Below are positions 26,539-53,958 of a stretch of DNA of 64,000 bases, in pieces. The notes beneath the pieces were generated by a model. The model was not told the DNA's origin, did no database searches, and worked only from the letters and a program-made list of their open reading frames with translations. The translations under genes and the position numbers were made by a program. How positions within the stretch are numbered: the stretch's first letter is position 1; each line of letters begins with the position of its first letter. Location: contig NZ_CP048114.1 in NCBI RefSeq assembly GCF_010093025.1, forward strand, positions 2,728,001-2,792,000. Reading direction: 5' to 3'. This DNA is from Edaphobacter sp. 12200R-103. Its GTDB lineage: Bacteria; Acidobacteriota; Terriglobia; Terriglobales; Acidobacteriaceae.

Positions 26539-26560
26539 ATTCTTCTTCGTGATGCGAAGC

Positions 26561-26980: not shown

Positions 26981-27103
26981 GGGAAAACCTCGCTCTCTTT
27001 AGATGATAACTCTTATCGTTCTGGTGCGCCATCTTTCGGTGGTTTTTGGAACTTCCGCCGAAACAAACACATACCAGTTCCCGATGGGAGTAAGCTTTCT
27101 GCC

Positions 27104-28329: not shown

Positions 28330-29781
28330 TCAGCGCGCTGCGTTTTCACCGCTATCTTGCTCTTCATCGAGACCATAGGTGGGATACGGAAGCGGCTCAT
28401 TGCTCGTAGTCATCGTGTGAAGCGTCGCCAGGTCAGCCTGGAGATCCTTCCAGTTAGCGGACCTGGCTTTAGTGGCGAAGTTGATGTTCATGTCCGCGTA
28501 ATAGGCAAGAATATCCTCCTTGATTCCTGGAGGAATTGGCTGATCAGGCCTGGCCGCGAGCCTGTGCACCAAACGGCAATAGGTTGCATCAGTGAGAGGG
28601 TAGCCTCCAGGACGCACCGTCTCGCCGGTATCCAGATCGCGATTTCTAAGCGGGTGCCTCGGATCAGAGGAGCCGCGCGGTACAGGTTGCTCCGCTCCCA
28701 GCCTTGCCGGCAGTGGATCGCTGGGTGGAGGCTGTGAGTGCACATCCATGCTGGCCGCCTCGGCAGCCGAAGGCCGTGTGGCAGGTGGAGGGGTGAAACG
28801 TCTGACAGCAAAGTTAAGCGCATCAGCCGAGCGGAGAACTGATTGCATGTACGCCCGGTCAGTCTCCGTCGTAGGCCCTTTAACCGCTGCGAGCTTCAGC
28901 GGGCCGATCTTGGGCACGATGAAGAGGAAGCCCGCCAGAGTATAGGTTCCGATACCAGGTTTGCGCCGATAGGCATCCCAATCATTCTTCTTCGCTACCT
29001 CTGCGAGTTCTGCCGTGAGCCGTTGCAATTCAGGAGAATCGACCACCGGCGGTTCACTATGACGGTGTAGCAGGGTGACAGCGTAGGCGATGCGGGGAAT
29101 GAACCGGCTGACCGCAAAGCGGTATCCCTTTACGTTGACGCGACGGCCTTTGCCCGCTGAAAAATCTTCCGCCAGTCCATAAGTCTGATAGAAGGCCAGC
29201 TCCAGCTGCCGCTGCGGAACCTGGATGCCGACGTGTCGAAGATAGTGGACCGGGGCGAAGCGTCCACGGGCAATCTCGTTCACGTCAAAGGCAAACTCCG
29301 TCCGGACGTGCTGAGATTCACCCTCGGCGTAGCTGACTGACCGGCCATATCGCTCCCCGAGTTTCGGGAATTCGACCGGAACGGCAAGATTGGTGGCATA
29401 GGCGTGGCCAATGCTGTCGCCGATGTAGTGTGAGAGAGCACCGATTGCAAAGGCGAGTTCATCTGCATTCCCTGCATTGCGAAACAGATTCACCACAAAA
29501 TCCCCGGACCGGACGTAATGGGTCAGATCGGAGAAGAAAGAATCGCCGAACGGGTAATAACCAATGTCCTGAATGACACACCCCCCGTAGGCATAGGCGC
29601 GCGCATGTTCAATCTGGGCATCGGTGAGGGTGGGGTAGCGACTCTTGAGCAGGGGAACGATGGAAGCGTCCCAGGTAAGATCAATCAGCTGCTCGTGTGT
29701 CAGCAGGGAGTAGCCACCTGCCGAAGGGATAGCAAACAGACAAATCGCGAGAAGAATTGTAAGGGGCCGGAAGATTCGCAT
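28330..29781 (-). CDS. Secreted zinc-dependent phospholipase C family protein (483 aa)
   Basis: A signal peptide (TILLAICLFAIPSAGGYSLL) precedes a zinc-dependent phospholipase C/S1-P1-like domain. Metal-ligand candidates are THEQLI near the start of the mature protein and ALSHYIGDSIGHAYATN near residue 130, the usual H-x3-D-x3-H arrangement. After residue 340 the protein becomes Pro-rich, then ends in a helical tail (TYCRLVHRLAARPDQPIPPG). The family hydrolyses phospholipid headgroups, but many members are uncharacterised. It lies between iscS and iscU on their strand, separated from iscS by a terminator, so it is probably not part of the Fe-S operon. Confidence 0.8.
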   Translation of the reverse strand: MRIFRPLTILLAICLFAIPSAGGYSLLTHEQLIDLTWDASIVPLLKSRYPTLTDAQIEHARAYAYGGCVIQDIGYYPFGDSFFSDLTHYVRSGDFVVNLFRNAGNADELAFAIGALSHYIGDSIGHAYATNLAVPVEFPKLGERYGRSVSYAEGESQHVRTEFAFDVNEIARGRFAPVHYLRHVGIQVPQRQLELAFYQTYGLAEDFSAGKGRRVNVKGYRFAVSRFIPRIAYAVTLLHRHSEPPVVDSPELQRLTAELAEVAKKNDWDAYRRKPGIGTYTLAGFLFIVPKIGPLKLAAVKGPTTETDRAYMQSVLRSADALNFAVRRFTPPPATRPSAAEAASMDVHSQPPPSDPLPARLGAEQPVPRGSSDPRHPLRNRDLDTGETVRPGGYPLTDATYCRLVHRLAARPDQPIPPGIKEDILAYYADMNINFATKARSANWKDLQADLATLHTMTTSNEPLPYPTYGLDEEQDSGENAAR

Positions 29782-32834: not shown

Positions 32835-32911
32835 AGGCGCGTAGCTCAGTTGGTTAGAGCGCTACCTTGACACGGTAGAGGTCGTTGGTTCGAATCCAAT
32901 CGTGCCTACCA
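32835..32911 (+). tRNA. tRNA-Val (anticodon GAC)
   Basis: All arms fold. Acceptor AGGCGCG pairs with CGTGCCT (one G-T), the D-arm is GCTC/GAGC, and the anticodon stem CTACC/GGTAG has loop TTGACAC giving anticodon GAC (reads GTC, Val). The T-arm is GTTGG/CCAAT with loop TTCGAAT. CCA is encoded. Its 3' part, from the anticodon loop on, recurs imperfectly at 54282-54327, so this is the likely integration site of the following island. Confidence 0.97.
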
Positions 32912-32912
32912 T
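32867..32912. repeat. attL-like repeat within tRNA-Val
   Basis: Anticodon loop to CCA plus one base. Matches 54282-54327 with six differences, all transitions. Confidence 0.65.
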
Positions 32913-33022: not shown

Positions 33023-36000
33023 TTAGTCCCCCAACTCATTCAACGAGCCAGCCAGCGTGATCATGAACTGATCGCTGGTAGATCCGTCGGGATCGGCCGC
33101 GTCCGGTTGTGCCGCCAGAACGGTCGTGTCCGACGGACCAGGCCACAGGGGCTGAATGCGACCGAGTCCGCCTTGCGCCAGCAGATCAGAGACAAGCGCG
33201 AAGGAAGAGTCCGGCCGGCTCAAGCGGATCCAGTCGGCCGGAGCAGCTTGTCCGCCGATGGGCGTTGCGACATGGAGCTTTGCGCCCATCAACGCACGCC
33301 GGTAGTTGCGAACCTTCTTCGAATAACCGTCTTCCAGCTGACGGTCGAAGGAAGCGATGGAGACGCTGCCATCGAAGGTCATGCCGCGCCGGCGGAAGTG
33401 CGCAGTTCCCACCAATGACCAGACATCGTCGACGATGATGGACGTCGTGCGAATGTAGGCAGTCCGGCCGGGGAAGCCAACGGGGTGAAAGACCGCAACG
33501 CGGTCCGGCGCAATGGTGGTTAGCATGGAGACAGCTTCGTTGCGCGCGTTGTAGTGGTAACGCGAGTAGGACTTGAAGTTCTCCGCGTAGTCGGTGAGCC
33601 GTGGCGTGCAGATGATCACCTTCAGGCACTTCATCGCCGTGAGACGGTCAGCGAGCTTCGCGACCAGGTCGACCTGATACTCCTTGGCAGGCGGAGAGAT
33701 GCGAGCAGTAGGAGCGAACTGCGGCGACTCGATGTAAATGAGTTCGCGCGCTTCTGAGATCGCTCGCAGCAACGACCATTGCACATCGCGGAGGCCATGC
33801 TTGGAGATGAAGAACTCCTTGCGAACCTCTTTCTGCAGACGCGGTTCGTTGTCGATGTTGACGGGGATGTTCGGCGCCGGCAGTCCCAGGCGGGTAGCGG
33901 CGGAGTTGATCATCTGCGTGACGGTGAGTCCGGCATCGGGCGGTGTCTGATCGCTGAGTTGCGAGGTCTCGCAGCCGACAGCGATGGTCCGCAGCAGAAC
34001 ACCAACGCTCGTGTTGGTGGTGTTGGCGGAGTCATCGGGTACGTTGAAGTTGTCGCCCATGGAGCCGACTACCCAACCCGGGTTGAGCCCATTGGTGGTG
34101 GGCCACGGGATCATCGGTTGAACACGTCGCATCGCGGCCAGCGCGGCATCATAGGCGAGAGCACCGGTGACGCGAACGCCGGGTGCGTGAACATCGGGGC
34201 CGCCGGGATTGCCTGGGTTGCCGAGATCATGCTGTGCGGATCGCGATTCGCCCGTGAGGCGGCCGCCGGTGACAATCGCATCCCAGAACAGAGTGCCGGT
34301 GGGCGCGGGGGTGCCTGGACCTGTGGTCCCCGTGAGCACTACCGTTTCAAATCGCGATTGCGTAGGCAGTCTGGGGGCCTGGCGGGGCGAAGGTTCCGCG
34401 GCGAGACTGATGGCGAGATCGATCACGTTCGAAGGGTTCGGGGTTGCCGGAGGTTGCGGCATCGGCACGCCGAACAACGGCGAAGGACCAACGCCTTCCA
34501 ACGCGGGGAGGAGCGGGGTTAAGACACCGGTGCCGTTGAAGGGCGGCGTGGGCGAGAGAGGACCGGCGGGGCCGTTCGCGACGCTCACGGTCAAGGCACC
34601 ATACAAACGGCGGCCGCCGCCTCGCGGTGCGACGACCAGATCGAGCGTCAGCGTGGCCGGTGACGGGCGTTGACCGCCATTGGCAAGCCGGAATGGATTC
34701 GGTACGAGTACGTCCGCAGCACCCGAGGCATCAGCGATGTTGGCGCCGCCATCGCCGCGGACGAAGGAAGGCTCTTCCGCGATAGCAGGGATCGCGACAA
34801 ACTGTTGCGGGTAGATGCGAATGTGCGCCTCCGCCGGAACGTTGGTCACCCGCACCACAACGTCATTCGACGGCAGCGCGACAAAAGAGGCCGTCAGGCT
34901 ACCAGCCGGCAGTGTCGCCGGAGGTGTTCCGCCCGGTGCTCCATTCTGTGCGGGAAAGGCTGGCCAATGCGCCGTCGCGCCTTGGGTGGGGGGCAGAATC
35001 AACGTGCCGTCGATCTCCTGCGACACGGCCATGATCATGCTTTGATTGGGGCGCGAAAGAACACGTGCGCACTCGGCCAGGGTGTCTGGACCGTCCACGG
35101 TGTAGTCAATGACCACTTGATCGCGCACCTCCGGGAGAAGCTCGGGAGGGATGCGACCATCGTCCTTTTGCACACCTTGCACATCAGAGCCCGAGCGGTT
35201 GCCGAGCAGACTCCACTTCACGTCGGCCACCATGACGCGCAAGAACTGCCGGTTCAATGCGGCGGGTGCGGTGATGGTGGGCGGCTGAAGATCAGCGCGC
35301 GCCAGCGTGCCATTCGTTGCCCACCCCCAACGCATGCGATTGTCATCGCCAGCGTCCGCCTTCACCTTGTCGCTGGCGCCGAGCGTGACCAGCGCGGTCG
35401 CTGGAATCTCCTCAGGAGTCATGACCCCGTCGCGGCCGATGACGATCTTGGCCGACGGAATGACCGGCCGGTAGTTGGCTCCGTGCGGATCGATGAAGTG
35501 CACCAGGGTGGTGCTGACCGTCTGTGCGATGGCTCGGATGCCGGTACCTGCATCGCCGGGTCCCCCCGTGACACCTGCGGGCTGGAGGCCGGGAAGCCAG
35601 GTCAACAGATGATCGAAGAGCGAGGCGACATAGATGGGATCGACGATCAGGCCGCGCCCATCGTGAAACGAGATGTCGCCGTTCACAGGTAGAGTGGCGT
35701 CAGCATCGTAGAACTGATTCGTCTTGAGGAACTCCGCACTGCGCACCAGCATGCAGACCGGAAAGGGATGGGTCACCGCGCCGTTGGAGGCGTAGCGTAC
35801 TGACATCAATCGTTCCAGCCGGTGAACAGCCTGGGGATGCAGACGAAAGACAGCGCAAGGCACCTGGAGCGGCTGGCCATCCGCGCCCAGAAACTGCGAC
35901 ACGGTTCCACCACGAGTGAGCTTCAAAGAGACTCGATCGCCGGAGGAGAAAGCCTGCTTGGTCGTGTTGTCGAAAGCACGAACCACCGTGAGCGCGTCCC

Positions 36001-36385
36001 CGGTTCTTGCGGTACACGCTACGGTCTCCTTCTTCGACCCGCTGTCATTGGAAAGCGTGAGCAGAACGGAGTCGCCGCCCGTGGGAGAAGGAAATCGATT
36101 GCCATCTCCGGCCGCGACATTGATCGTGGTGTCGTCCGCCGTGATGTTCGCTGACAGCGTGGAGGACGCGGGTGCGAAGGCGCCTTCCAGCAGACCTCGG
36201 AAGGGAGCGCGCAGTCCACCCGCGATGTGCAGAGTGAGCTGATTGGAGTCATAGCCGCCAATCGCCGCGGTGGACCAATGCGGGCTGAGCGCGAGCGTGG
36301 TGAGACCCAGCGCATCCAACCCGTCGTTCTGGAGGTTGGTCTGCGCGTTGGCCGCGGTGAGCGTGTAGATCGGAAGAGTCGCCAT
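33023..36385 (-). CDS. Giant operon protein A: tail-fibre-like segment and degenerate PLD-like domain (1120 aa)
   Basis: Third gene of the giant operon, with no signal peptide. Residues 80-155 hold a segment typical of phage tail-fibre and tail-adapter proteins: DDTTINVAAGDGNRFPSP, then TVVRAFDNTTKQAFSSGDRV. A long Pro/Gly-rich middle follows. From about residue 855 it resembles the second half of phospholipase D proteins (LLRAISEARELIYIESPQF). The HKD motif position (about 975) reads RTTSIIVDDVWSLVGTAHFR, so the catalytic His and Lys are Arg and Thr while Asp remains. The domain therefore probably binds rather than cleaves. The ATG has GGTGAG upstream, two bases after the previous stop. Overall function unknown. 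Confidence 0.7.
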   Translation of the reverse strand: MATLPIYTLTAANAQTNLQNDGLDALGLTTLALSPHWSTAAIGGYDSNQLTLHIAGGLRAPFRGLLEGAFAPASSTLSANITADDTTINVAAGDGNRFPSPTGGDSVLLTLSNDSGSKKETVACTARTGDALTVVRAFDNTTKQAFSSGDRVSLKLTRGGTVSQFLGADGQPLQVPCAVFRLHPQAVHRLERLMSVRYASNGAVTHPFPVCMLVRSAEFLKTNQFYDADATLPVNGDISFHDGRGLIVDPIYVASLFDHLLTWLPGLQPAGVTGGPGDAGTGIRAIAQTVSTTLVHFIDPHGANYRPVIPSAKIVIGRDGVMTPEEIPATALVTLGASDKVKADAGDDNRMRWGWATNGTLARADLQPPTITAPAALNRQFLRVMVADVKWSLLGNRSGSDVQGVQKDDGRIPPELLPEVRDQVVIDYTVDGPDTLAECARVLSRPNQSMIMAVSQEIDGTLILPPTQGATAHWPAFPAQNGAPGGTPPATLPAGSLTASFVALPSNDVVVRVTNVPAEAHIRIYPQQFVAIPAIAEEPSFVRGDGGANIADASGAADVLVPNPFRLANGGQRPSPATLTLDLVVAPRGGGRRLYGALTVSVANGPAGPLSPTPPFNGTGVLTPLLPALEGVGPSPLFGVPMPQPPATPNPSNVIDLAISLAAEPSPRQAPRLPTQSRFETVVLTGTTGPGTPAPTGTLFWDAIVTGGRLTGESRSAQHDLGNPGNPGGPDVHAPGVRVTGALAYDAALAAMRRVQPMIPWPTTNGLNPGWVVGSMGDNFNVPDDSANTTNTSVGVLLRTIAVGCETSQLSDQTPPDAGLTVTQMINSAATRLGLPAPNIPVNIDNEPRLQKEVRKEFFISKHGLRDVQWSLLRAISEARELIYIESPQFAPTARISPPAKEYQVDLVAKLADRLTAMKCLKVIICTPRLTDYAENFKSYSRYHYNARNEAVSMLTTIAPDRVAVFHPVGFPGRTAYIRTTSIIVDDVWSLVGTAHFRRRGMTFDGSVSIASFDRQLEDGYSKKVRNYRRALMGAKLHVATPIGGQAAPADWIRLSRPDSSFALVSDLLAQGGLGRIQPLWPGPSDTTVLAAQPDAADPDGSTSDQFMITLAGSLNELGD

Positions 36386-36387
36386 GG

Positions 36388-39300
36388 CTAGCTCACCACC
36401 TCTGTGTGTTCATCGGTGCGTCCGTCGGGCGAGGTCAACCGCACGACGAAGCTGGTGACGGAAACCCTGCAGAAGGCGTAGTAACCCAGGGTGGTGCCGT
36501 GGGGTCCCGGGACGCGACGGAGCAGCAAGGGATCATTGCCTGCCGGAGGACCCGTGTCGTTGTCGATGGGAATATCCGGCACGGGGATTTCGATCGTAAT
36601 GGGTGGAGCACCCTTGATGATGGGCCCCTTGATCACGGGCTCCGTCAATCCATGCGCGGCATTGATCAGGGCATCCTCCGACACCGTACGCAACGGCGTC
36701 ACCGCTTTGATAGCATCGCTCGCCTTCATCGTGTCAGACAGCGCGAAGGGAAACTTCGGCGGGACGGGACTCAGCAGCGGACGATAGGCGGTGACCTTGA
36801 GCAGATACGGCGGGTCGTCCACATTCACCTGCGCGTTGCACATGAACAAGAGCTGGGTGCCCGCGGGCGACGCAATCTTCTTCACCTGGAACTTGCCCAA
36901 CTTCGGCGGCGGCAGAACGGAACCGGCGGCGATGCGAACCACCTTTTCACTCATGCGGCCCAAGGGATCGGTGAGTTGAATAATCACATCGACTGGATCG
37001 TTCTCCGAAGCGCGGCGGAGATAGGCGGCATAATGACGCGGCGCCTTTGCGTTGGGATCGATGATCCAGACACCGGAACCGGTCGCGGGCTCAGTCGAGG
37101 GGATTGCGTCCATCTTCGAGGTAAAGTCGATCAATGGCGCGGCCGCGCCTTTCACCGTCGCCTTCACCGATAAAACATGAGGACCCAAAGGTGTTTTAGC
37201 GAGAGGTACCGTGCTGGTCCATTGCAGCAGGACGTCGCCGACGGCTCCGCCGGAGGGCCAGGAGACCGTCACCGCGGAGAGATTCGGCTTGCCGGAGGGA
37301 GGGATCACCACCCAAGCCGCGGAGCTTTCCCCCGAACGCCCGCCCAGATAGCCGCGCAGATCATCCGGATCCGACCAGGCAGCGGCGCGATACCAAACCC
37401 GCTTCCACGAACCCGCCGGCGTGTCATAGCCGGTCACCTTGTTGATGTTGGTCCCGAAGACATCGTCAGCGGTATCGACCGTCCATCCTGCGCCGTTGCC
37501 CGTGATGGTCGCCAGGGCCGGCCCCATCGTGTCCAACTCCTTCGCGGCATCATCCACCCGAACGCGGAACAGTTGTACCTTGCGGACGCGCGGTCCCAGA
37601 CGCGAACCGACCTCCACCCGAGTGCGATAGACCGGCGGATCGACACTGATGTCCAAGTAAGGCCGGACCTCCAACGTGGGCGGCGCGGGCTTCATGACGC
37701 GCGGAGCCGCGATGGCCTGCAGCGCGTCACCTGCATCCGGTCCTGACGGCCAGTCCGACTCCACTTGTCCCGCATTCACACCAATAACGATGAAGAGATG
37801 GATCGAGGTAGAGCCGCGTGGCAGCGCTATGTCGGTATTGTTGCCTTGAATCGGCCTGTCATTGCGGCGAGTGAAGTTCCATTTCGCCGGGTTGTCGCGG
37901 AAGATCTGCTTGAGCGTGGTGAGCCGTTCACTCAAAGTCTTCTCCGGCGGCGGCTCTGGGAGGCCCGCATCCATCAAGAGCTTCGACTCGGTTGATTCGT
38001 AAATGAAATAGCCTACCGCGTTCGTCGGCTGACCACTGGTGTTCCAGGTGAGCCGCGCATGACATTCACCCGCGGCATCAGGTAAAGATGCCAGCGTGAC
38101 AATATCCGGGATCATCTTCGGCGGACGCGGATCCGAGACCGAGATCACACTCGGATCATTCGACCAGGCACCTTGCCGTTGAGGAAGAATGCGTTCCTGA
38201 CCCATCGCCCACAGCGCCAAACCGATGTGACCGGTTGACGCGAAGTCGAGCGTGAAGTCAGTCAGGGTGACGCGATAACGGCGCGTCTCGTTGCCCTGCT
38301 GCGCGGGGGTTGCGACCAGCTTCTGCCCGTCTTCGGAGAGCAACTGGACCGCGGGAGAGTCCGGGCTCTCACCGGTGAAGGTGAGGTCGAGAATCGAACC
38401 GGTGTGATTCAACTTTCGCTCCAGCACACCGGGCACCGAGGTGATGGGCGGTGGATCGCCGCGATGTGCTGCCGCATAGAGGCGTCCGACAAAGCTGATG
38501 CGCCTGGGACGGCGGACGCGCCAATCCCATAGGAATTCAATGGTCAGCGTACCGGGGCATTCGGTGCCATCCGGTGTCGCCGGCTGTCCCGCGCTCAACG
38601 TCGCGGTGACGATACGCACATGGTCGACCGGCGGCTGCGTCACGTTGCTGTTGGCGACCGACCACACGCTCCACTGCCCATAAATGTCCTGCTGCGCGAC
38701 GCCGTAGCGGAGTTGGCGCGAACCCGGATTGGCAGGGATGGGTAGTTCGCGATCGACATCGGAGATCTGCCACCAGTCCGGAGGAATCGGAGTAGGCAAC
38801 GCGCTATTGATCACGCCGTACTTGTAGCCACCGCTGGGCCGCAGATTCATCAAAGGGCGCACGGGTTCAGCGGGCGACAGGCTGGATCGCATCACCGCGT
38901 AGGTGCGCGGCCGGATCAGTTCCAGATCGGCCGGACGGTCCCAGGTCACCTTCACCGAACAACGCCAATCGGCGTCGGTGGTCAACGGGCGGAGATTGCC
39001 CATCATCTCCGTGTAGAGGTTCGCGGGAGCCGGAGGGGCCAATGCTTGCGGAGGCGACGGTACCATCGCCGCCATTTCGTAAGGCTGCGAGTTTCCATCG
39101 AGACCCTTTTCCCAACGGGCCGTGATCATGTAGTCGTAACTCAGCGCCGTGGGAATGGACACGGCGGCGAAGTTCGCGGTGATCACGGGATAAGCCGTGC
39201 CGAAGCCCAGCGACAATGCGAGCCATGGGTCCACGCCCGCGGGCATCAGTGTGGCCGCGAGAGGCGAGAACTCGGTCGTGGAATCACTCACCGGCATCTT

Positions 39301-40149
39301 CTTCCCCGAAGAGTTCTCCGGGGGCGGCACAACAACAGTGATCTTCTTGTCGTACTGCTGATTGGGCGGTGTCGCGGGCAAGACCTTCTTCAGCAGATCG
39401 ATGATGCCGGTCTTGATCTCCTGCGTAACCAACTGATTCGTGTTGGGCGGCGTCCATGGCGGCACCGCTTCGCCGGTCGGCAGAGTGGGCTGCCAACCCA
39501 CTTGAGGCGCGCCACGCTCCAGACGCTGCAGGGCCGCGGATTGGGGCGTGGTCAACGCGGCGACCATGCCTTGCGGCGCCGCATAATGCGCGATGCCATT
39601 CCACTCTGGCACCGGAACCGGCAGACCGACATACTCGAACTTCTCCCAGCCCGATGCGGCCGAAAGCTGATCCACGGGAATGCCGGTGATGCTCTTGATG
39701 ACGACGGTGGGCGAGACCACCAGTCCATCGATGGAGGTAGCACTCACCTGAACCACGGTGCTTCCCGCATTCACCGCCACAATCGCATTGAAGTTGGAGA
39801 AGATCGGCGAGCCGGTATAGGCCAGAATGGTCCCAGTGGAGGTGGGGTCCACCTCCACAAAGACACGAAGCATGGGGCCGTCCGTCCATTCCACCAACTG
39901 ATTGCCCAGGAGGAAGCCTTGCGAGCGGACCGTATACTTCAATGCCTTCTCGCCCTTGCTTCCCTTCGGCCTGCGCCAGACGATGAACGGCTCTGTGGGT
40001 AGCCCCAGTTCGCGATGGATCATCCAACGGATCTGCAGCGTGTACCGGTTCGCACCCTGATACGGATAGCCGAGCCGCCGAGCAACCACAGCCCAGTCGA
40101 GATAGGCGGCTTCCGCCTTGAATTTATCCTGATCAACGACGTAGGCCAT
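36388..40149 (-). CDS. Giant operon protein B: multi-domain beta-rich protein of unknown function (1253 aa)
   Basis: Second gene of the operon; starts MAYVVDQDKFKAEAAYLDWA with no signal peptide. Most of the length looks like strung beta-sandwich modules, some fibronectin III-like (ARLTWNTSGQPTNAVGYFIY; VTVSWPSGGAVGDVLLQWTS). I do not recognise the family. ATG at 40149 is chosen because its A overlaps the TAA of gene C (TAATG) and GGAGGAGG lies about ten bases upstream, inside the codons for gene C's acidic C-terminus. This tight coupling argues that proteins B and C are made together and probably assemble. Confidence 0.7.
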   Translation of the reverse strand: MAYVVDQDKFKAEAAYLDWAVVARRLGYPYQGANRYTLQIRWMIHRELGLPTEPFIVWRRPKGSKGEKALKYTVRSQGFLLGNQLVEWTDGPMLRVFVEVDPTSTGTILAYTGSPIFSNFNAIVAVNAGSTVVQVSATSIDGLVVSPTVVIKSITGIPVDQLSAASGWEKFEYVGLPVPVPEWNGIAHYAAPQGMVAALTTPQSAALQRLERGAPQVGWQPTLPTGEAVPPWTPPNTNQLVTQEIKTGIIDLLKKVLPATPPNQQYDKKITVVVPPPENSSGKKMPVSDSTTEFSPLAATLMPAGVDPWLALSLGFGTAYPVITANFAAVSIPTALSYDYMITARWEKGLDGNSQPYEMAAMVPSPPQALAPPAPANLYTEMMGNLRPLTTDADWRCSVKVTWDRPADLELIRPRTYAVMRSSLSPAEPVRPLMNLRPSGGYKYGVINSALPTPIPPDWWQISDVDRELPIPANPGSRQLRYGVAQQDIYGQWSVWSVANSNVTQPPVDHVRIVTATLSAGQPATPDGTECPGTLTIEFLWDWRVRRPRRISFVGRLYAAAHRGDPPPITSVPGVLERKLNHTGSILDLTFTGESPDSPAVQLLSEDGQKLVATPAQQGNETRRYRVTLTDFTLDFASTGHIGLALWAMGQERILPQRQGAWSNDPSVISVSDPRPPKMIPDIVTLASLPDAAGECHARLTWNTSGQPTNAVGYFIYESTESKLLMDAGLPEPPPEKTLSERLTTLKQIFRDNPAKWNFTRRNDRPIQGNNTDIALPRGSTSIHLFIVIGVNAGQVESDWPSGPDAGDALQAIAAPRVMKPAPPTLEVRPYLDISVDPPVYRTRVEVGSRLGPRVRKVQLFRVRVDDAAKELDTMGPALATITGNGAGWTVDTADDVFGTNINKVTGYDTPAGSWKRVWYRAAAWSDPDDLRGYLGGRSGESSAAWVVIPPSGKPNLSAVTVSWPSGGAVGDVLLQWTSTVPLAKTPLGPHVLSVKATVKGAAAPLIDFTSKMDAIPSTEPATGSGVWIIDPNAKAPRHYAAYLRRASENDPVDVIIQLTDPLGRMSEKVVRIAAGSVLPPPKLGKFQVKKIASPAGTQLLFMCNAQVNVDDPPYLLKVTAYRPLLSPVPPKFPFALSDTMKASDAIKAVTPLRTVSEDALINAAHGLTEPVIKGPIIKGAPPITIEIPVPDIPIDNDTGPPAGNDPLLLRRVPGPHGTTLGYYAFCRVSVTSFVVRLTSPDGRTDEHTEVVS

Positions 40150-43100
40150 TAGTCTTCTTCCTCCTCCCACGGAGCGCGAGCCAAATTCAGATCGGCGATG
40201 ACGACATATTCGTCAGGGGCTCCGGGACCATCGAGATAGGTTTCATGCTGGGCGATCTTCTTCAAAGCCAGCTTCAGGTTCTTGCCTCGCGAGTTCGGCT
40301 TCAGCGTGATCAAGGCGCGTTGACCACCGGGCGCGGGCACGATCTTATCCACGATGTCGTCCCCGCCCGCGGCTTGAGCCACTACCAGCCAATCGACCGG
40401 GGTCATCTCATAGCGCTTGTTCTGCGCCGGAGTTGGGTCAATCGACTCTCTTGGCAGCAAGCGGCTACGCCACAGCGGTTCTGAGGCATCCACAATAATC
40501 GCAGCCGGCTGCGGAGTCGCTGACGTTTCCCAGAAGACCACCAGCCTTGGGTCGTGAGGAACTTCCATCGGTTCCAGACCCGCGCCGATGAAGTCTTGAT
40601 CGAGTTCGCTGCCTTGCGGCGTTCGCGACTCCGCGGCGTACTTGTTCGCGATCGCTTGCATCGCATTCGGATTCACCGGACGGTGTTTGACGCGGTTCAC
40701 CATGAAGGAAGCGCCAAAGTCCGCCAGGGTTTGGAATCCACCCGTGCTGAAGACGCGCCGCCAGATCGAAGTCCCCGCCGCGTCCTCCGGCGCATCCTTG
40801 TCCAGCATCTCGATGTCGAGCACGTAGTCCGTGTAGAGATCGAGCGGAATCGGGATGGTCACCTTGGAGTGCCGGATCCGCGTTCCGGATGACGGCACGC
40901 ACGATCCATCCAGGACCTTTTCGAGCGTCTCTTCAAACGGGTCGGCGATGCTCTTGGCCACCGGCTTCACCGTGTCCGCATTGATCGGGAACGGATGGGG
41001 CGCACCGGGTGTGGGAGCGGGCGGATGGTACGACGAAGCCTTCAGCCTCACCTGCAGGCGTTTGCCGTAAGTTTCATACAGCCGCACCACATTGTTGGTG
41101 GCAAAGATGATGTTGATCTCTTCCAGCGAAAAGAAGTGTTTCTCACCATCCTGCGGAATACTGGCCAACATCCACGGATCCAGCCGCGCGGGCGGATCGG
41201 GATCGGTCCGGAACCAGTAGGTCTGGGTTTGGTCGGTGATCGTCTTCTTGTCGGTCGGCGATCCACCGGCAGGACGGCGTTCCCGCGACGCATCCCACTT
41301 CACCGTGACGCTATAAACCGTGTTCTTCGCGAGCAGCGCATAGTCTCCCGCTTCCGAACTCAGCACGGTGCCGGCAATCCCCTTCTTCTTGGTTTGCTCC
41401 GTGGTGTCGTAGTCATAACGCCACACCTCCGCCGTGCGCATAGCGTCGATCGCCGCGACATAGAACGGCCGCCAGGTGATTTCCTTGTCCATCGAGGGCG
41501 TCCAGGACTTCAAGCCCACTTGCACCTGAGTGCCCTTGGGATGGCCCTTCACCGTGACGATGACAGGGACATAGCCCTGCTGCTGCAATGCCTGCGCGTG
41601 TTGAACCAGCTTGTATAAACTCCCCATCCAAAGCCCGGTGGGATCGATCCACTTCGCCGGATAGGGCACACCCGGTGTTGCGTCTGCCGGGATCACAATG
41701 TGTTCGGTCAGCGTGTTTTCCTGATCGTCCATCACCGCAACCGTGAGTTGCCCAGTAGTGAGGACCACTCGATTCACGAACAAATAGAAGGTGCCGTAGT
41801 CGAGCGCGCCGGTTCCGAAGACCACCGCGTCCACCAGCGGTCCTGGCTTGTAGCCGCGCTTGTGCAGGCGCTCCAGGAGGGTCTTGTCGCGATCCGTCTT
41901 CGGATCGGTCTTGAAGCGCATGAAATCGTCGCGGAAGGGCGACGCCAACACGCGGCTCTGGCAGTTCTTCGGCGCCGCAGCCGCAGCCGTGGTGGTTGCC
42001 GGATGGATGACCATCGACTGCAACGCAGCTCGCGGAATCGCGATGCCGCTGTTCAGGTTGCGCACGACATCGTTCAGCGTCAGGGCTTGCGCGGGCACGG
42101 TGTCCATCCGCTTCACGCCCTTTGCCGACTCGATAATGGGCAGGCGCATGGCGATGGGCTGCGGAGCAGTCGAGACTGGTGCCGTTGAGCCGCCCGGGAG
42201 CGTAGTCCCCGGAGTGGTCGGCTTCCGGTCCGGCGGGCAGACCACCGCGAGTCCTTCCACCTGCGCCGGGATCACGCCGCGCATCTGATCCAACTTGCGA
42301 TCACCGGAGCGCCAGCGTTCCGTCACTCGCAACGTCAAGTCCGTGGGGCCGGAGCGCAGAGTTCCCGGAGGGTCGGGCCATGCCGTTCCATCCAGCCACC
42401 AGCCATATGGCGAGGGGCCGAGGATCTCCTGAAGGAAGGTCCACAGCACTGGCGTCGGGGGTGCGATGGGCGTGCAGACGGTGCCCCAGTGCTCGACGAT
42501 GGTCTCCTCGAGGAACTTGCTCGACTCGATCGCCTTCGGTGTCGCTTCCGGAATCCAGCTCAACAACGCGAGCTGCGCTTCCAGCGCTTTGTCGCCGCTC
42601 TTCTGTTTCCACCAGGTCGCTGGCGTTCCGCCTTCGGTCACAGAGCCGGAGAGTTCAATGCTCTTCAGCGTGTATTTGAAGAAAGTATCGCCATGGGCGA
42701 TCCAGCCATCCGGCGGAGCTTCGGAGCTGCCCTGCAGATCCTTGCCCTTGAATTGAACGCCGTTGGCCAACGGCGGAGCCGACATCATCAAGACCGGAAT
42801 CGCATCGATGGGCACAATGGGTAGATCCGCGGGCTGCGATGCGCCTTCTTTGCCGTCGCCAATCCCGCCGTCGACAGGCCGGTCGGTGGCCGTGCCCATC
42901 ACCAATGCGGGCGAACGACTGATCAGCTTCAACGTCTTGGACAGCGCCGGAGGATCCGGAACCGGGACAGAGTTATCCCCAAGGGCAAAGTGGACGCACC
43001 CGGAGATGGTGAAGAAGAGGAAGTCGATCTCGCCACAGATATCGCCTTCGATGCGGCAGATCTCGTTGCCGCCAGCATCCTCTCCCATATCGACCTTGAG

Positions 43101-46100
43101 GTTGGCCCAGGCCGAAATGCTGATGATCCAGAGATGCAGCGATCCGCGGACGTAGAGGATGCCCGCGAAGCGGAAAGGATCGAAGCCGACAATGGCGTCG
43201 AAGCCGGCCGCAAGTTCCGCATAAAGCCCCGCGGGCTTCGATCCCCAAATGAACGCCACATGGAGACCGGTCGCAATGGAAAAGCCCGTGACGGCAGGAA
43301 GGTTCGGAATCCCGGAGATGCCGTTGCCGGCAATCATGAGGTATCCGCTGCCTTCAAACACGCTGAGAATGTCGGCCTGAATCTGGTCGTTATACTTGCC
43401 CAGATAGAGGTGCCAGTCCGGAATGTTGTTGAAGTTGAAGAAGGCTTCAACCGGAATGCGAATGCGAAGAAGTGGCTCGACTTTGAACTCAGCAGAGATG
43501 CCGATGGTCAACGTGCCGCGGCCCATGTCGAGATCGATGACGGCGAAGAGCAGGCCCTCTGCGTCGCCGCCCAGGTCGGGCATCGGCATCAGCAGGTTCG
43601 CCTTCATCATCAACAGCAGGCGCGGCCCGGGGAGTTCCAGTAAGATGACGCCCTTCAGGTTGAAGATGACGCTGGAACCCATGGTGCCGAGAATGGCGCC
43701 GACACCGAAGGCCCAACTGTTGACATTGCTCTTCCAGAAAGCAATGTCGGTGGGATTGCCGCCCGTTGCTTTGAGCCATGCCAAGGCCGGCGCCTGGTTG
43801 TCCGCGGGGACGTCGTCTTCATTGCGCTTGTAGTGCATTGCAAAGAGACCCAGGAATCCATAGATGCCCAGACCCGAACAGCCCAGGGGAATGGCCACGG
43901 GGAACTCAACGTACAGCGTGACAATCACGCCCGTGGCCGGCCCCCCTGGCTCGCTCGCGGGAATCTGGCGGATGCCGATGCCCGCGGCCACGCGCACCGA
44001 GACCGGCACGATCGTGAGATCGATATACCCCTTGATCTCGGTCTCACTCAACTCGAGATAGCCGCGGCCGCGCAGAGCTCCCGGAATATCGATGCCGGCA
44101 CCGAAGGCGGTGAGCTCCACCTTCACCGGATCTTCCAGACGGGCACGGATGCGCGCGCGATCGATCGACACGACACCGAGATCAATTGCAAAGCCGAGAT
44201 CGACTTCGATCAACATCGGGTTGTTGCGCGCAATGCGCGCGCCCAGAATCTTCAGAATCGATCCCAACGGATCGGCGACTTCAATCGCACCGGGCTTCGA
44301 CAGATCGATGGAATAGCCCTTCGACGAGTCGAACATCGGCCGGAATTGGAACGGCAAACCGCCCGGAGGGCTACCGAACATGATGCCGATCGCTTTGTAG
44401 CGAACCACCAGCGGCGATTCGCGCTTAATCTTCACCAGCCCCAGGAAGTCCGCGCTGATCGCGGTCTCAATGTCGAAGAGGACCGTGGTGGACCATTCGC
44501 CTTTGGCATTCGCCGTGACGTTCAGTTCGCCGCCGTACCAGATGATGCGCTCCGTGCGCATCCATCCCAGACCGGCAATCAAAGCGCAGAGGCCGAAGCC
44601 CGCCGCGGAGACACCGAGTTCCGCCAACGCCCCTTCCTTGGCCACTGCTCCAGCGCCTTCCGCAATGAGCGGCAGGAACACACAGGAGGTCCCAAAGAAG
44701 TCCAGGCCGAAATTCTTCGGTCCGGGATCGGGCGGTTGATTTGGGCGCGTGCCTAGCAGCGCAAGACCATCGCGGTCGGCCGGATCGGCACCGAAGTAGC
44801 CGGTGACGATCACTGTGTCGGTTGCATCGTCGATCTGTACGACAATCCGGATGTCGATCAGACCGTCCGCGGGGTTCTGGCTGCCCAGCCCCTGCCATTG
44901 CGGCATCGTGGTGCCAGGACCGGCGCCGTCGCGCAGCCGGTTCTCCGCGGCAGTCTGATAGTCGAACTTGCCGAAGACTTCGCAGGCAACAAATTGATTG
45001 CGAACGATGCGGACCTTGGCGCCGAGTTGCCGAAACCAGGATGGTGGTTGTGGCGGCTCCGCGGCCGGCGTCGGATCGGGGACTGGAATCGGCTGCGGCG
45101 TCGGGTTATTGGGATTCGCTCGCCGGGAGACATTGCCTTCGGTCACCGTGCCCGCGCCGGGGCCGGGCGTCCAGGAGGCCTCCGCCTTCCAGAAGTTGCG
45201 ACGGGTGGCGAGCGTGGTCCCTTGCGTGGTCCACTGCGACATCTCCGCGACAGGTGACGGAGTGAATGTATAGGAACGGCTAGCCAGTTCCGGCGTCTCC
45301 GCCAGAACCTTGTCGAACATCGCCTTCAATCCATCCGCACGACGCTGGGCCAGCGCGGTGTTGTAGGTGAGCGATTGCTGGGTGTTCTGACCTTCGTAGC
45401 TGGCATATCCCTTAATCGCGATGTCGGAGTGATTGGGGATGCCCATCAGCGTGCCGCGTAACGCGCTGATAGAGTCGGAGCCCGAGAACCAGTTGCTGGT
45501 AGCGCCATCATCGGGCGCCGGTTCAGTGCGGGAGTTCGCGGAATTCGTCGAGTAGGCGTTGCCCTCATTCGGCGCAGGATGATCGAAGCGATAGTAAGCC
45601 GTGAACTGTCCCGTACTCGGATCGCCCGGGAGTTCCGCTCGCACGCTGACGCTCTCGCCCGGACCGACGTTCACCGTGACTGTGGTGCTGGACCCGGCGG
45701 GCGATCCATTCACCGTCCAGGTAGGCGTTCCGCTGCGATCCAGGCCGATGGTCGCCGTCGTGGGAGTCTCACTCACCAGCCGCAAGCGCGGTGCGTTGAC
45801 CGCTACGCCGCCTTGCGTCACCGATGTGGTCTGCAGGTCGACGGGCGCGTTCTGAGTGGTGGAGGGTTGCGAGCCAGGAGGCGGAAGGGCGGGAGTTGAG
45901 ATCCGGGTTGCGTGGATCGTCAGCGTTTGATTCTTCGGCGGGGCGCTGGTGTCGGTCGCATTGATGACGATGGTGCGGGACGTCGCGGTGGAGAGATCGA
46001 TGTCATGCTCGCGGCCGTTCTGTGCGGCTCCTCCGTCGAACGTGGCAGACGTGGTAATGGGCGTTCGCCCGCCATCGACATCAATGATCATCCGCGTGCG

Positions 46101-47183
46101 AGACGGCAGTTGCACGGTGGCTTCGGTATCGCTGGTCTGCGTGATCCCGTAGCTCTGCATCGTCTCGTCATAAAAACGAGCGCCCAGCTTGAGTGGACCT
46201 GCCCCCTGATTGAGAACCTGAAGTTCGAAGTCGCCGGTGACTCCGGCAGACGGACCAAAGCCGATGAGCAGATTGCGGACCCCGCCATCGACCGCGAGAT
46301 CTCGGGCGCCGTGGGGCGCGACAAAGAGACGGATCTCCGGCAGGTAGAGGCCGGTCCAGTTCTCGTCGTATCCGAACTGGCTCAGAATGTCGGGCGGCGT
46401 GGAGTTGGTGGATAGGTCCAGCACCGCGGACCGGAATCCAAAGCCCACAACGTTCGATGAACCGATGAACGCGTAGGGCGGGTCCATGGTAATCAGCTCG
46501 GCGATGGCCAGGTCGCCGGGATCATCCAGGCCTGATGCGCCTGCGGAGAGCAGGGTTGCGTTGAGCGGGCTTTCGAAGGCCGATGTCTGCGACAGGCGCA
46601 TCTTGATCTTCGGCAGCGTGAACTTCACCTGCTGGTTCTGTGGATCCTCCACCAACTGCCCGTCGGGTTCGCGCTTGGCGCCACGCAGAAAGGGAGGACG
46701 CAGCACGATGGACGTGAGGATGAAGTCGAGAACGAACTCGGTGTTGGGGTAGTCCGAAGGCGGTGCGTCGGCGGGAATGAAGTCGTATTGCTGGAGCACC
46801 GCGGCTGCGTTCGCAAAGCCACCCGCGCCGCCAATCGCGGTCACGGCCTGCGTGATGGTGGCTGATGCGATGCGTGGAACGGTGAGTTGAAACTCGATCT
46901 TGGCATCGCGAACATCGATCCAAGGATTCCGGCGCCCCGGGTCATTCAGGGGATGATTCTCTGAGTTCTGAGCATCGACGCCCATGACCATACGGTCAGG
47001 GTCGATATACGGCTGGACATCGCCGAAAAATCGGACGGTCCCCCGAACGACAATCCCTTCGGGTCCAATCGAGGTCTCGTGCTGATCGACGGCCAATGCC
47101 GCCAACGCAGGATGCCACGCCCCAAAGCCCCCGCCCCGTAAAACATAGGGCGTCATCAAGTCGAACAGCGACAAATCAGGCAC
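40149..47183 (-). CDS. Giant operon protein C: 2344-aa beta-rich protein with OmpA-C-like segment
   Basis: First gene of the operon. The start is GTG with a strong AGGAGGT Shine-Dalgarno; there is no signal peptide (MPDLSLFDLMTPYVLRGGGF). At about residues 570-650 there is an OmpA-C/MotB-like segment (IAIKGYASYEGQNTQQ, then YNTALAQRRADGLKAMF). A short hydrophobic stretch, LGVSAAGFGLCALIAGLGW, lies near 860. Residues of about 890-1480 form a long run of amphipathic beta-strands (VSIDRARIRARLEDPVKVEL; GYIDLTIVPVSVRVAAGIGI) somewhat like large uncharacterised beta-rich families such as DUF6603; I cannot verify this. The C-terminal third has more beta modules and ends PWEEEED. Function unknown. 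Confidence 0.7.
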   Translation of the reverse strand: MPDLSLFDLMTPYVLRGGGFGAWHPALAALAVDQHETSIGPEGIVVRGTVRFFGDVQPYIDPDRMVMGVDAQNSENHPLNDPGRRNPWIDVRDAKIEFQLTVPRIASATITQAVTAIGGAGGFANAAAVLQQYDFIPADAPPSDYPNTEFVLDFILTSIVLRPPFLRGAKREPDGQLVEDPQNQQVKFTLPKIKMRLSQTSAFESPLNATLLSAGASGLDDPGDLAIAELITMDPPYAFIGSSNVVGFGFRSAVLDLSTNSTPPDILSQFGYDENWTGLYLPEIRLFVAPHGARDLAVDGGVRNLLIGFGPSAGVTGDFELQVLNQGAGPLKLGARFYDETMQSYGITQTSDTEATVQLPSRTRMIIDVDGGRTPITTSATFDGGAAQNGREHDIDLSTATSRTIVINATDTSAPPKNQTLTIHATRISTPALPPPGSQPSTTQNAPVDLQTTSVTQGGVAVNAPRLRLVSETPTTATIGLDRSGTPTWTVNGSPAGSSTTVTVNVGPGESVSVRAELPGDPSTGQFTAYYRFDHPAPNEGNAYSTNSANSRTEPAPDDGATSNWFSGSDSISALRGTLMGIPNHSDIAIKGYASYEGQNTQQSLTYNTALAQRRADGLKAMFDKVLAETPELASRSYTFTPSPVAEMSQWTTQGTTLATRRNFWKAEASWTPGPGAGTVTEGNVSRRANPNNPTPQPIPVPDPTPAAEPPQPPSWFRQLGAKVRIVRNQFVACEVFGKFDYQTAAENRLRDGAGPGTTMPQWQGLGSQNPADGLIDIRIVVQIDDATDTVIVTGYFGADPADRDGLALLGTRPNQPPDPGPKNFGLDFFGTSCVFLPLIAEGAGAVAKEGALAELGVSAAGFGLCALIAGLGWMRTERIIWYGGELNVTANAKGEWSTTVLFDIETAISADFLGLVKIKRESPLVVRYKAIGIMFGSPPGGLPFQFRPMFDSSKGYSIDLSKPGAIEVADPLGSILKILGARIARNNPMLIEVDLGFAIDLGVVSIDRARIRARLEDPVKVELTAFGAGIDIPGALRGRGYLELSETEIKGYIDLTIVPVSVRVAAGIGIRQIPASEPGGPATGVIVTLYVEFPVAIPLGCSGLGIYGFLGLFAMHYKRNEDDVPADNQAPALAWLKATGGNPTDIAFWKSNVNSWAFGVGAILGTMGSSVIFNLKGVILLELPGPRLLLMMKANLLMPMPDLGGDAEGLLFAVIDLDMGRGTLTIGISAEFKVEPLLRIRIPVEAFFNFNNIPDWHLYLGKYNDQIQADILSVFEGSGYLMIAGNGISGIPNLPAVTGFSIATGLHVAFIWGSKPAGLYAELAAGFDAIVGFDPFRFAGILYVRGSLHLWIISISAWANLKVDMGEDAGGNEICRIEGDICGEIDFLFFTISGCVHFALGDNSVPVPDPPALSKTLKLISRSPALVMGTATDRPVDGGIGDGKEGASQPADLPIVPIDAIPVLMMSAPPLANGVQFKGKDLQGSSEAPPDGWIAHGDTFFKYTLKSIELSGSVTEGGTPATWWKQKSGDKALEAQLALLSWIPEATPKAIESSKFLEETIVEHWGTVCTPIAPPTPVLWTFLQEILGPSPYGWWLDGTAWPDPPGTLRSGPTDLTLRVTERWRSGDRKLDQMRGVIPAQVEGLAVVCPPDRKPTTPGTTLPGGSTAPVSTAPQPIAMRLPIIESAKGVKRMDTVPAQALTLNDVVRNLNSGIAIPRAALQSMVIHPATTTAAAAAPKNCQSRVLASPFRDDFMRFKTDPKTDRDKTLLERLHKRGYKPGPLVDAVVFGTGALDYGTFYLFVNRVVLTTGQLTVAVMDDQENTLTEHIVIPADATPGVPYPAKWIDPTGLWMGSLYKLVQHAQALQQQGYVPVIVTVKGHPKGTQVQVGLKSWTPSMDKEITWRPFYVAAIDAMRTAEVWRYDYDTTEQTKKKGIAGTVLSSEAGDYALLAKNTVYSVTVKWDASRERRPAGGSPTDKKTITDQTQTYWFRTDPDPPARLDPWMLASIPQDGEKHFFSLEEINIIFATNNVVRLYETYGKRLQVRLKASSYHPPAPTPGAPHPFPINADTVKPVAKSIADPFEETLEKVLDGSCVPSSGTRIRHSKVTIPIPLDLYTDYVLDIEMLDKDAPEDAAGTSIWRRVFSTGGFQTLADFGASFMVNRVKHRPVNPNAMQAIANKYAAESRTPQGSELDQDFIGAGLEPMEVPHDPRLVVFWETSATPQPAAIIVDASEPLWRSRLLPRESIDPTPAQNKRYEMTPVDWLVVAQAAGGDDIVDKIVPAPGGQRALITLKPNSRGKNLKLALKKIAQHETYLDGPGAPDEYVVIADLNLARAPWEEEED

Positions 47184-47873: not shown

Positions 47874-50800
47874 ATGCAACTGGGAAAGGCAGCATTGCGA
47901 AGGGTCGCGGTCGCACTTTTGTTTGCCGGCCTGGCGACAATTTCAGCGTACTCTCAAAACATCTTCGGCTCGATCGTCGGAACAGTAGACGATCAGTCGG
48001 GAGCCGTTCTCCCGAACGTGGCTATCACCGTCACGAACCCCGCGACAGGCGAAAAGCGCTCCGTCACCACCGATAATCAGGGAAACTATCAGGTCCTATC
48101 CTTGCCGCGTGGGGAATATACGATCGACATCGACGCCACCGGCTTTAAACATTTCACGCGCACCCCCATCAATGTGGTTGTAAACCAAGTAGTGCGCGTC
48201 GATGTCACCATGTCCATCGGCGAACAGACCCAGACGGTGGATGTGACCGGCGCGACTCCCATCCTGCAGACGGACACTACCTCGCTCGGACAGGCGATTG
48301 AAGGGACCGCGGTGCGCGACCTGCCGCTCAATGGTCGCAACGTGCTGGCCCTGGTTGCGCTGGTGCCGGGTGTGGTGCCGCAAGGTGCTTCCAATACCAA
48401 CCTCAGCGGGCAGAACGTGTTCGCAGCTGGCAACTTCCAGATCGGCGGCGGTAATGCCAACCAGGGATCGGTCCTGGTGGACGGTGTGTCCGTGAATACG
48501 TCGTATGGCAACGCCGTCGAGCTGGTGATGGATCAGGACAGCATTCAGGAATTCAATGTTCAAACACACAACAACACTGCGGAGTTCGGCAAGTACACGG
48601 GCGGTGTGATCAACATGAGCACCAAGTCCGGCTCAAATACTTTTCATGGCACGGCTTATGAGTACTTACGCAACACCGTGCTCAACGCAAATTCCTTTTT
48701 TGCGAAGAGAAACAACTCCGGAAAGCAAGCGTGGCACCAGAACCAGTTCGGCGCCAACATCAGCGGCCCGGTGATGAAGAACAAGATCTTTTTCTTTGGC
48801 GCTTACCAGGGCTACCGACAGACCAACGGACAGTTGGTTCTCGTTACGGTACCAACGGAGGCAGAACTGAAGGGTGATTTCTCCGGCATCAGCGCTCCCA
48901 TCTACGATCCTCTGACGACCTGCGGCACTCTCAACAATCCCGCTTGCACGGCAGCCCAGAGCGCGGGAACCGCTCCTACGCGGCGGCAGTTTTCCTATAA
49001 CGGCGTTGCGAACGTCATCCCCCCCAACCGGTTGAGCAGCGTAGCCAAGAACCTGATTGCATTTCCTATCTACGGACTGCCGAACGTTCCCGGAACGCCT
49101 TCACCACAAGGGCCATTGAACAACTTTTCGCGACTGGCCACCGCAGGCGGCATTAATGATCAGTACACTGCCCGCGGCGACCAGAACCTCAACTCCAAAT
49201 TCTCTATGTTCGAGCGCTACACGAGGTGGAACTCGAGGAACATCGACCCCCAGCCATTCCCGAACAATAATCTTTATTACATCGCTCTGGCGCCAGAGGT
49301 ATTCAGCACCAATCAGATCGTCGTGGGTGGCACGTACCTCTTCAACGCCAATTCGGTGGCTGACCTGCGCCTCGGCTATCTGCGGTGGAACTACAACCGC
49401 ATTCCGACTAATCTCGGCCTAAACGAATCGACGGCATTCGGCTGGCCTTCGTATATGGACTTCGGCCATTTGAACAACCTGCCAAAGTCCACCGCAGTTC
49501 CTATGATTAGCACTGGAGGGCCGATCAGCTACTACGAAGGCTCTGCCGGCTACATCTTCTCCATCAACAACAACTATTCGATCGCGTCGACCTATCAGAG
49601 AGTCTGGAAACGGCACACTTTCAAAATGGGCGTGGATTTGCGCCGGCTGGAGATGAACTATTTCCAGAACAACAACCCAGGCGGCATCTTTACCTTCGAT
49701 AACATCTTCACCTCACAGAGCACAGGATCGCCGGGAGCGACGGGCAACCCGCTTGCCTCCTTTGAGCTGGGATACGTCTCGACCAGCACCGCGCAGACGG
49801 TGCAGATTGCGCCGCCAACCTATCAGACCCTCCGCTACCAAGGCTACTTTTTCCAGGACACCTGGCAGATAACCAACAAGCTGACCGCCACGCTCGGGTT
49901 GCGCTACGAAGTGCCGGGCACCTTCATTGCACGGCATGGCTGGGCGAACACCTTCAACCCGACCGAAATAAATCCAATTTTGAACATACCAGGTGCCTAC
50001 GACCTGGTGAGTTCACCACAGCATCCTGCGGCGGGTGTCTACAACGAGAACTGGACCGACTGGGCGCCGCGAGTTGGCCTCGCCTATCGCCTCGACGACA
50101 ACACGGTCATCCGAGGAGCGTTTGGCAAATTCTTTGTCCCGGCAGACCTACAATTCCCCAGCGCTCCGCTGCAAGCAGGCGTCAATTTCCTGAACAATCT
50201 GATGGTCAATACGATCGACGGACAGCAAACTCCCTACAACACATTGGACAACCCATATCCGAGCGGGCTGCAAGGACCGCCGCACCGGGATCCAAGCTAC
50301 CAGCAGGTGCTGCTGGGGGGTAATGCTCAGGCCCTCTACGCTGATGAACCGAACGGCCTCACGTACCAATGGAACCTGACAGCCGAACGTCAGTTCTGGA
50401 AGGGGATCGCCCTGTCAGCGTCATATGCCGGACTGCGTGGCGAGCACCTGCCAATCAGCGTTCCGATCAATCCGTTGTCGGACAGCGTTATATCCCAGGC
50501 AGCCGCAGATCCGAACTGCTCATCGGGCAGTATCGCAAACTGCTTTCTGAACGTGCAGGCGGCTAACCCGTACTATCCGAAGATAAGCCAGGGGACTTTG
50601 CGAAACCCAACGGTGACCAGGAACCAGTTGCTGCGGCCTTTCCCGCAGTATGGCGGCATCACCAATAGCGGCCACTACGTTGGCATCAGCAACTATCATT
50701 CGCTGGAGCTCAAGCTGCAAAAGCGGATGCCGGGGAACGGGCAGATACTTGGGTCGTACACCTTCTCCAAGCTGCTGACCAATGCTGAGTACCTGACCTC

Positions 50801-53889: not shown

Positions 53890-53958
53890 ATGCTTCCGCG
53901 ATCGGATAGATTTGCCGCTGAATGAAGCGCGGGCACGGATCGCGCCACCATCGTACAC

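Follow-up and report, generated by a model that had tools for sequence, protein, structure and literature searches.

The window, a 64,000-nucleotide stretch of contig NZ_CP048114.1 of Edaphobacter sp. 12200R-103, carries on its minus strand three consecutive genes for giant proteins, which we call P1, P2 and P3 in operon order. P1 (40149-47183) starts with GTG and encodes 2344 aa, P2 (36388-40149) encodes 1253 aa if translation begins at the ATG at 40149 and 1260 aa if it begins at a GTG at 40170, and P3 (33023-36385) encodes 1120 aa. A likely ribosome-binding site, AGGAGG, was read from the sequence upstream of P1 (47191-47196, minus strand). All three open reading frames are intact, P1 and P2 overlap in a TAATG, and P2 and P3 are separated by a 2-base gap, which confirmed the single operon of coupled giant genes that a sequence-only reading of this DNA had described. 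That reading had also found the proteins to lack signal sequences, and hydropathy of the start regions agreed: no hydrophobic signal segment was present at any of the three starts by Kyte-Doolittle means over 12 residues, for which the best near-start values were 1.35 (P1), 1.0 (P2) and 1.41 (P3). Curated families in Pfam and NCBIfam were reached by neither P2 nor P3, and the only one reached by P1 is a DUF, so the trio still qualifies as the undescribed system it had been proposed to be; its newness rests on missing family matches and not on known function.

The tRNA-Val island

The operon sits on an island, as had been suggested. The left boundary is a tRNA-Val gene (GAC; 32835-32911, plus strand), the 3' half of which forms the left copy of a 46-nt direct repeat (32867-32912, plus strand). 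The right copy (54282-54327, plus strand) is identical at 40 of the 46 positions and reproduces the last 18 tRNA bases exactly, and the 19-base core of the repeat occurred at just these two sites in the whole genome with up to 2 mismatches allowed. The repeat bounds a 21.4-kb island at the tRNA-Val gene. Its right boundary is based on the repeat alone, and none of the genes to the right of the second copy was found near the tRNA in the same-genus relatives that we fetched. Besides the trio, the island encodes a TonB-dependent-receptor-like outer membrane protein of 1208 aa (47874-51500, plus strand) and a right-handed beta-helix protein of 677 aa (51925-53958, minus strand). A Pfam scan of the five large island genes found no integrase among them.

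We compared the site with eleven same-genus stretches. The block to the left of the tRNA (cysteine desulfurase, Rrf2, CDP-alcohol transferase) was kept in 10/11 stretches and the tRNA-Val followed the transferase within 0.4 kb in 8/11, trio genes were found in none of the eleven, and the genes directly after the tRNA-Val differed among the seven relatives inspected. One relative (G033, L093 6093-14779) carried an integrase and TrbE/TrbI-type type IV conjugation genes after the same tRNA-Val, which therefore serves as an integration site in the genus.

Two other genes in the window were noted in passing. The minus strand at 28330-29781 encodes a protein that resembles zinc-dependent phospholipase C and has a signal-like start; it was found at this place in 1 of the 11 relatives. 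A lone phage-type tail sheath gene (26549-28327, plus strand; Pfam E 3.4e-20) lies 4.7 kb from the trio. Two genomes of the genus, G012 and G024, have it at the corresponding position, and no P3 was found in either. The first 140-160 residues of the sheath open reading frame were conserved on their own in eight relatives that have no sheath part, and the match in G024 begins at residue 188; because of these two observations we place the true start of the sheath gene probably near residue 185.

Recurrence and horizontal spread of the cassette

Searches of 5.8 billion proteins returned 242 homologues of P1, 174 of P2 and 259 of P3 at E ≤ 1e-3, numbers that exclude chance. A P2 profile scan of GTDB genome contigs, which went through two peptide patterns and is not exhaustive, gave 22 loci. 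P1 preceded P2 in 20/22 loci, the contigs of the other two (L020 and L021) stopping ahead of P1, and P1 and P2 overlapped or lay within 16 bases of each other in all 15 loci measured, with some starts approximate. P3 followed P2 in 20/22 loci. The two others were Arthrobacter (L013 and L017), which kept P1 and P2 and had no P3 anywhere in the genome by P3 profile search; P3 is therefore not strictly needed. Failure of the trio to co-occur elsewhere had been named beforehand as a possible refutation, and the recurrence of order and adjacency over the 22 loci instead upheld co-occurrence.

Around these loci, 156 non-trio open reading frames contained a single gene family common to loci, from two Actinomycetota lineages and at 29% identity. 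This comparison used mechanical ORF calls over a span of about 3 kb upstream of P1 and at most about 6.6 kb downstream of P3 in most loci; it covered loci other than the window and set aside the near-duplicate pairs L022/L023 and L013/L017. Within the trio, identity matrices mirrored one another, with correlations of 0.974 for P1-P2 (120 pairs), 0.959 for P1-P3 (91 pairs) and 0.970 for P2-P3 (91 pairs). The rows of the matrices, and of the trees described below, were the window, 14 of the 22 loci and Rhizobium tropici; L002, L005, L007, L008, L010, L020, L021 and L023 were left out, as were proteins from MAGs and other sources that are closer to the window, such as a Polyangiaceae P1 at 73%. 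P1-P2-P3 is a self-contained cassette encoding three leaderless giant proteins. They have stayed together in bacteria that are only remotely related (identity to a Bacillota genome 55-63%), and a 14-kb cassette held together over such a distance must be under strong selection.

The loci belonged to Acidobacteriota, Bacillota, Actinomycetota, Pseudomonadota, Cyanobacteriota, Gemmatimonadota and Nitrospirota, with Polyangiaceae added as carriers through a protein name; isolates carrying the cassette included Pseudomonas fluorescens PS862, Edaphobacter modestus DSM 18101 and Paenibacillus montanisoli RA17. Trees paired taxa from different phyla. The window and Paenibacillus were sisters with support of 100/100 in both the P1 tree (16 rows) and the P3 tree (14 rows), and Edaphobacter and Pseudomonas fluorescens were sisters with 100/100 and 100/99, respectively; these pairings hold among the rows included, since closer proteins exist. 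Carriage was sporadic. Full-length P3 occurred in 1 of the 61 genomes of the relatives search, which was the window's own genome, and a divergent trio (24-36% identity) split over two contigs was present in G006. Surveys that scored up to two candidates per genome found full-length P3 in 2/396 Acidobacteriota, where five further matches were partial and four of these consisted of the tail-fibre part alone, and in 1/398 genomes of the phylum of Pseudomonas fluorescens PS862, namely PS862 itself. The cassette has moved horizontally between phyla. The case for transfer is built on tree topology, sporadic carriage and the repeat. Base composition was rejected as proof of foreign origin: the GC3 of the trio (0.73-0.75) falls among the values measured for other genes in the window (0.61-0.80).

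Phage sequences yielded no carrier. Profile scans of viral contigs with P1 and P3 gave no relative, and P1 had no match among phages. P3 matched 33 phage records, none spanning 80% of the query, and the best 20 of the 33 covered 8-16% of it, in the N-terminal part.

Domain content of P1, P2 and P3

P1 residues 988-1220 (43524-44222, minus strand) matched DUF6603 (PF20248) with 28.1 bits against a cut-off of 27, and 13/20 P1s matched this family at E ≤ 1. The score at the same place was 21.4, below the cut-off, in a six-frame search of the genome. In hhalign, the P1 profile gave no significant match to two ordinary DUF6603 proteins (probability 3% and 2%), and because it misses these, P1 would be a remote member of DUF6603 at best. 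The literature that we searched contained no mention of DUF6603 or PF20248. The long amphipathic beta region that had been predicted was found at residues 1001-1400 (42984-44183, minus strand), where beta-type periodicity reached z values of 5.2, 1.0, 3.1 and 3.7 in successive 100-residue windows; residues 301-400 also gave 3.3, and 46 such windows were tested over the three proteins. Two stretches of high family-mean hydropathy lie at residues 829-877 (44553-44699, minus strand), with further stretches at 899-919, 989-1008, 1053-1116 and 1158-1182.

The OmpA-C-like segment claimed for the trio, which falls in P1 (residues ~576-645; 45249-45458, minus strand), fared less well. Pfam OmpA was matched at E ≤ 1 by 4/20 P1s with a best E of 0.0078, the window's own P1 not being among the four, and the P1 family profile gave weak OmpA-C-like matches in the PDB (E 0.027 and 0.48). 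The sequence at this place, GYAS.EG, presumably is without the usual acidic residue. Two P1 homologues, P0082 and P0085, have an N-terminal extension annotated as an extra peptidoglycan-binding domain. A search of 20 P1s, P0082 among them, detected this domain in one (7e-11). The most conserved stretch of P1 scored 0.88, and the C-terminus was conserved as well, with an identity to the window of 0.63 at residues 2281-2340.

P2 is internally repeated over residues 374-1251 (36397-39030, minus strand; E 7e-7), in long stretches shifted by about 140-180 residues. FN3-like modules had been proposed for the trio; support for them in P2 is weak and consists of this repeat and one Pfam match (E 0.25) in 1/26 members. 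Neither P2 nor P3 had a Pfam family at E ≤ 1, and the best PDB match of P2 had an E of 1.1. The C-terminus of P2 (residues 1201-1253) had an identity to the window of 0.52, and its variable stretch (1081-1200) is internal.

P3 contains the phage-tail-fibre-like segment that had been noticed from the sequence, at residues 73-160 (35906-36169, minus strand; PHROG 8469, E 2.7e-20; PDB chain 8jov_1, E 1.5e-10). The likeness to phage tail-fibre proteins was confined to these roughly 90 of the 1120 residues. The module was present in 119/120 close P3s (BLASTP E ≤ 1), but was missing in the four deep branches represented by Nodosilinea, Brachymonas, Solirubrobacter and R. tropici. These deep-branching proteins kept P3 sequence on both sides of the missing module, weakly at the N-terminus in the case of R. 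tropici (E 0.005).

The C-terminal part of P3 holds a PLD-like lobe (residues 871-1067; 33185-33775, minus strand). The PLD-like domain of the sequence-only reading was borne out in its homology, since the lobe matched a Mycetohabitans PLD (BLASTP 8e-10; hhalign 1e-7, 94%), and not in its active site. Where a PLD has its HxKxxxxD motif, the window's P3 reads RTTSIIVDD (residues 979-987; 33425-33451, minus strand), and the catalytic H and K were absent in all 120 P3s examined (the window's own and 119 listed of the 259 found), of which 118 followed the second-motif pattern R-[STN]-T and the remaining two read RTT and RST. Both residues were also absent in G379, G006, R. tropici, Nodosilinea, Brachymonas and Solirubrobacter, and motifs among deep-branching P3s were IRSTT, LRSTT, LRGST, IETT and ICSTT. 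A first-lobe PLD motif was not detected in P3, as hhalign aligned the second lobe only. Family searches gave little more: Pfam PLDc_2 appeared weakly (E 0.34) in 1 of 24 sequences, and the single NCBIfam line for the trio was a sub-threshold match of P3 to cardiolipin synthase (E 0.15). Conservation of P3 peaked around the emptied motif, at 0.85 over 40 residues from residue 967 compared with a median of 0.56, and the site therefore seems to be kept for a non-classical role. The PLD-type lobe of P3 is without the catalytic H and K, and it should not be taken for a classical enzyme. Towards the C-terminus of P3, identity to the window was 0.66 at both 1021-1080 and 1081-1120.

Related clusters and possible function

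One related cluster lies on plasmids of endofungal Mycetohabitans (M. rhizoxinica HKI 454, pBRH02, and M. endofungorum). It also consists of three genes, encoding a 1322-aa protein, a PLD of 463-509 aa and a DUF6603-type protein of 2337-2496 aa. P1 residues 996-1500 were homologous to this cluster (hhalign 6.7e-21) and P3 residues 871-1027 to its PLD (8e-10). The cluster differs in that its gene order is another, its PLD is a separate protein and a P2 homologue was not demonstrable (best hhalign probability 8%). The Mycetohabitans PLD has a complete HKD second motif (HSKLMIVD), and its first HxK (HQK) is without a D at the usual place. The two plasmid-borne clusters (L103 and L105) lie near toxin-antitoxin genes. 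We found no account of the trio in the literature, and the sole mention in print that we found concerned the distant pBRH02 cluster, in one passage of the 2011 M. rhizoxinica genome paper (PMC3102044).

A divergent trio in the same order was present on pRtrCIAT899c of Rhizobium tropici CIAT 899, with identities of 31% (P1), 26% (P2) and 31% (P3); its P3 has likewise lost the H and K and differs by having no tail-fibre module. Plasmid pAMI4 of Paracoccus aminophilus carries a P1-like and a P2-like gene, and G379 has relatives of these two genes together with a P3-like protein. DUF6603 operons of Acidobacteriota (such as L118 and L122) resemble the trio in that giant proteins are encoded in a row and one of them is a DUF6603 protein. 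That protein is only about 1150 aa, however, and the two that we tested had no significant hhalign match to the P1 profile; five partners in L118 and L122 (976, 1578, 581, 1062 and 1485 aa) had no homology to P2 or P3, and the three L118 partners scanned had no Pfam family. Among the Acidobacteriota DUF6603 gene rows L118-L122, two had a PhoD-like or PLD gene nearby.

Several known types of system were considered and rejected. A polymorphic toxin does not fit conserved C-termini, a variable P2 part that is internal, the lack of any toxin-immunity feature in the trio and the near absence of common neighbours, and an insecticidal Tc complex does not fit the lack of Tc/RHS matches in P1-P3 in Pfam and NCBIfam. 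The strict contractile tail-like systems (eCIS, tailocin, T6SS) were rejected as well, as P1-P3 match no sheath or tube family and the window's own genome has no tail tube.

We tentatively favor, at less than even confidence, a leaderless beta-rich complex of P1, P2 and P3 that would be put together in the cytoplasm and, once released, directed at other cells or envelopes. The body would be P1, its amphipathic beta sheet or groove binding lipid or touching a membrane; lipid binding is a guess from the periodicity. Contact with the wall might be made through the OmpA-C-like part and, in two homologues, the peptidoglycan-binding domain. Repeated beta-sandwiches would make P2 a rod, and P3 would be the recognition end, with an optional tail-fibre module and a PLD-fold head that may bind rather than cleave. 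Action outside the producer, after lysis or by another route, on other cells or a host would be the least certain step, for which fibre-tipped toxin carriers offer an analogy. Support for such a complex comes from the cassette and its mirror correlations, the cross-phylum pairs, the leaderless starts, the tail-fibre module, the lost H and K, the peptidoglycan-binding domain of P0082 and P0085 and the amphipathic beta region, and further from the rarity of the cassette as island or plasmid cargo and from the distant PLD-bearing three-gene cluster on plasmids of fungal endosymbionts. Against it, two Arthrobacter do without P3, the OmpA-C-like part has weak matches, and neither a catalytic nor a pore domain could be recognised in the trio.

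Some of the same evidence would suit other functions. P1 could be the carrier groove and the P3 lobe a head-group binder in the handling of lipids or another hydrophobic molecule inside the cell or at its envelope, with no action on other cells. In P1 the amphipathic beta region and the hydrophobic stretches, and in P3 the PLD-type lobe, are compatible with this, as are the eight neighbours scanned in eight stretches around distant DUF6603 genes, which included one PLD and one PhoD-like protein, and the Mycetohabitans PLD. We nevertheless consider such a role unlikely, as rarity and island or plasmid carriage are unlike a housekeeping function, nearly all P3s examined carry the tail-fibre module, and lipid transport genes common to trio neighbourhoods were not seen. 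Export by a non-classical route could also give the producer a surface layer, a fibre or an adhesive structure, which would make use of the beta-type periodicity, the repeats and the OmpA-C-like and peptidoglycan-binding modules, but the producers are both Gram-negative and Gram-positive, with envelopes that differ, and no export genes common to the cassette loci were seen; we judge this quite improbable.

Two further explanations take the tail-fibre module as their starting point. As a decoy or sensor of a phage part, it could place P3 in an anti-phage or other intracellular conflict system, for which leaderless proteins, strain-specific carriage and a tRNA island would be suitable. No PADLOC-DB family was matched by the three proteins at E ≤ 1, so a known anti-phage defence was rejected, and with almost no common neighbours, and with P1-P3 of the window showing no recognisable domain of a nuclease, an NTPase or a membrane effector, we regard a conflict system in general as very unlikely. 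The module, together with the lone sheath 4.7 kb away, is also what could recommend the contractile tail-like or toxin-carrier machine that the sequence-only reading had raised. Tubes and sheaths were each found in 7 of 18 trio genomes (the window's own and 17 of the 22 loci, including two near-duplicates), a frequency that by itself neither supports nor excludes a link in other genomes. In the window's own genome the only sheath-like gene is that at 26549-28327, and there is no tail tube. The 18 include six Acidobacteriota (own, L003, L006, L009, L010 and L015), of which L010 alone has a tube, the lone sheath also stands in two relatives without P3, and the tail-fibre module is gone from four deep branches. 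In the strict sense, a tail-like machine is therefore highly improbable and, for this genome, largely refuted.

The leaderless complex, if it is what the cassette encodes, may represent a new kind of three-protein machine, made up of a body that binds lipid or touches a membrane, a rod, and a head for recognition that has an emptied PLD fold. We hold this to be possible rather than probable from the sequence comparisons. It would travel as a stand-alone cassette across many phyla, Gram-positives included, and would be one member of a larger group, others of which may still have an active PLD. If the complex is released, it would add a new type of leaderless assembly to carriers of the tail-like and toxin-complex kinds. 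Otherwise, the amphipathic beta region and the emptied but conserved PLD site would still be entry points to new biochemistry.
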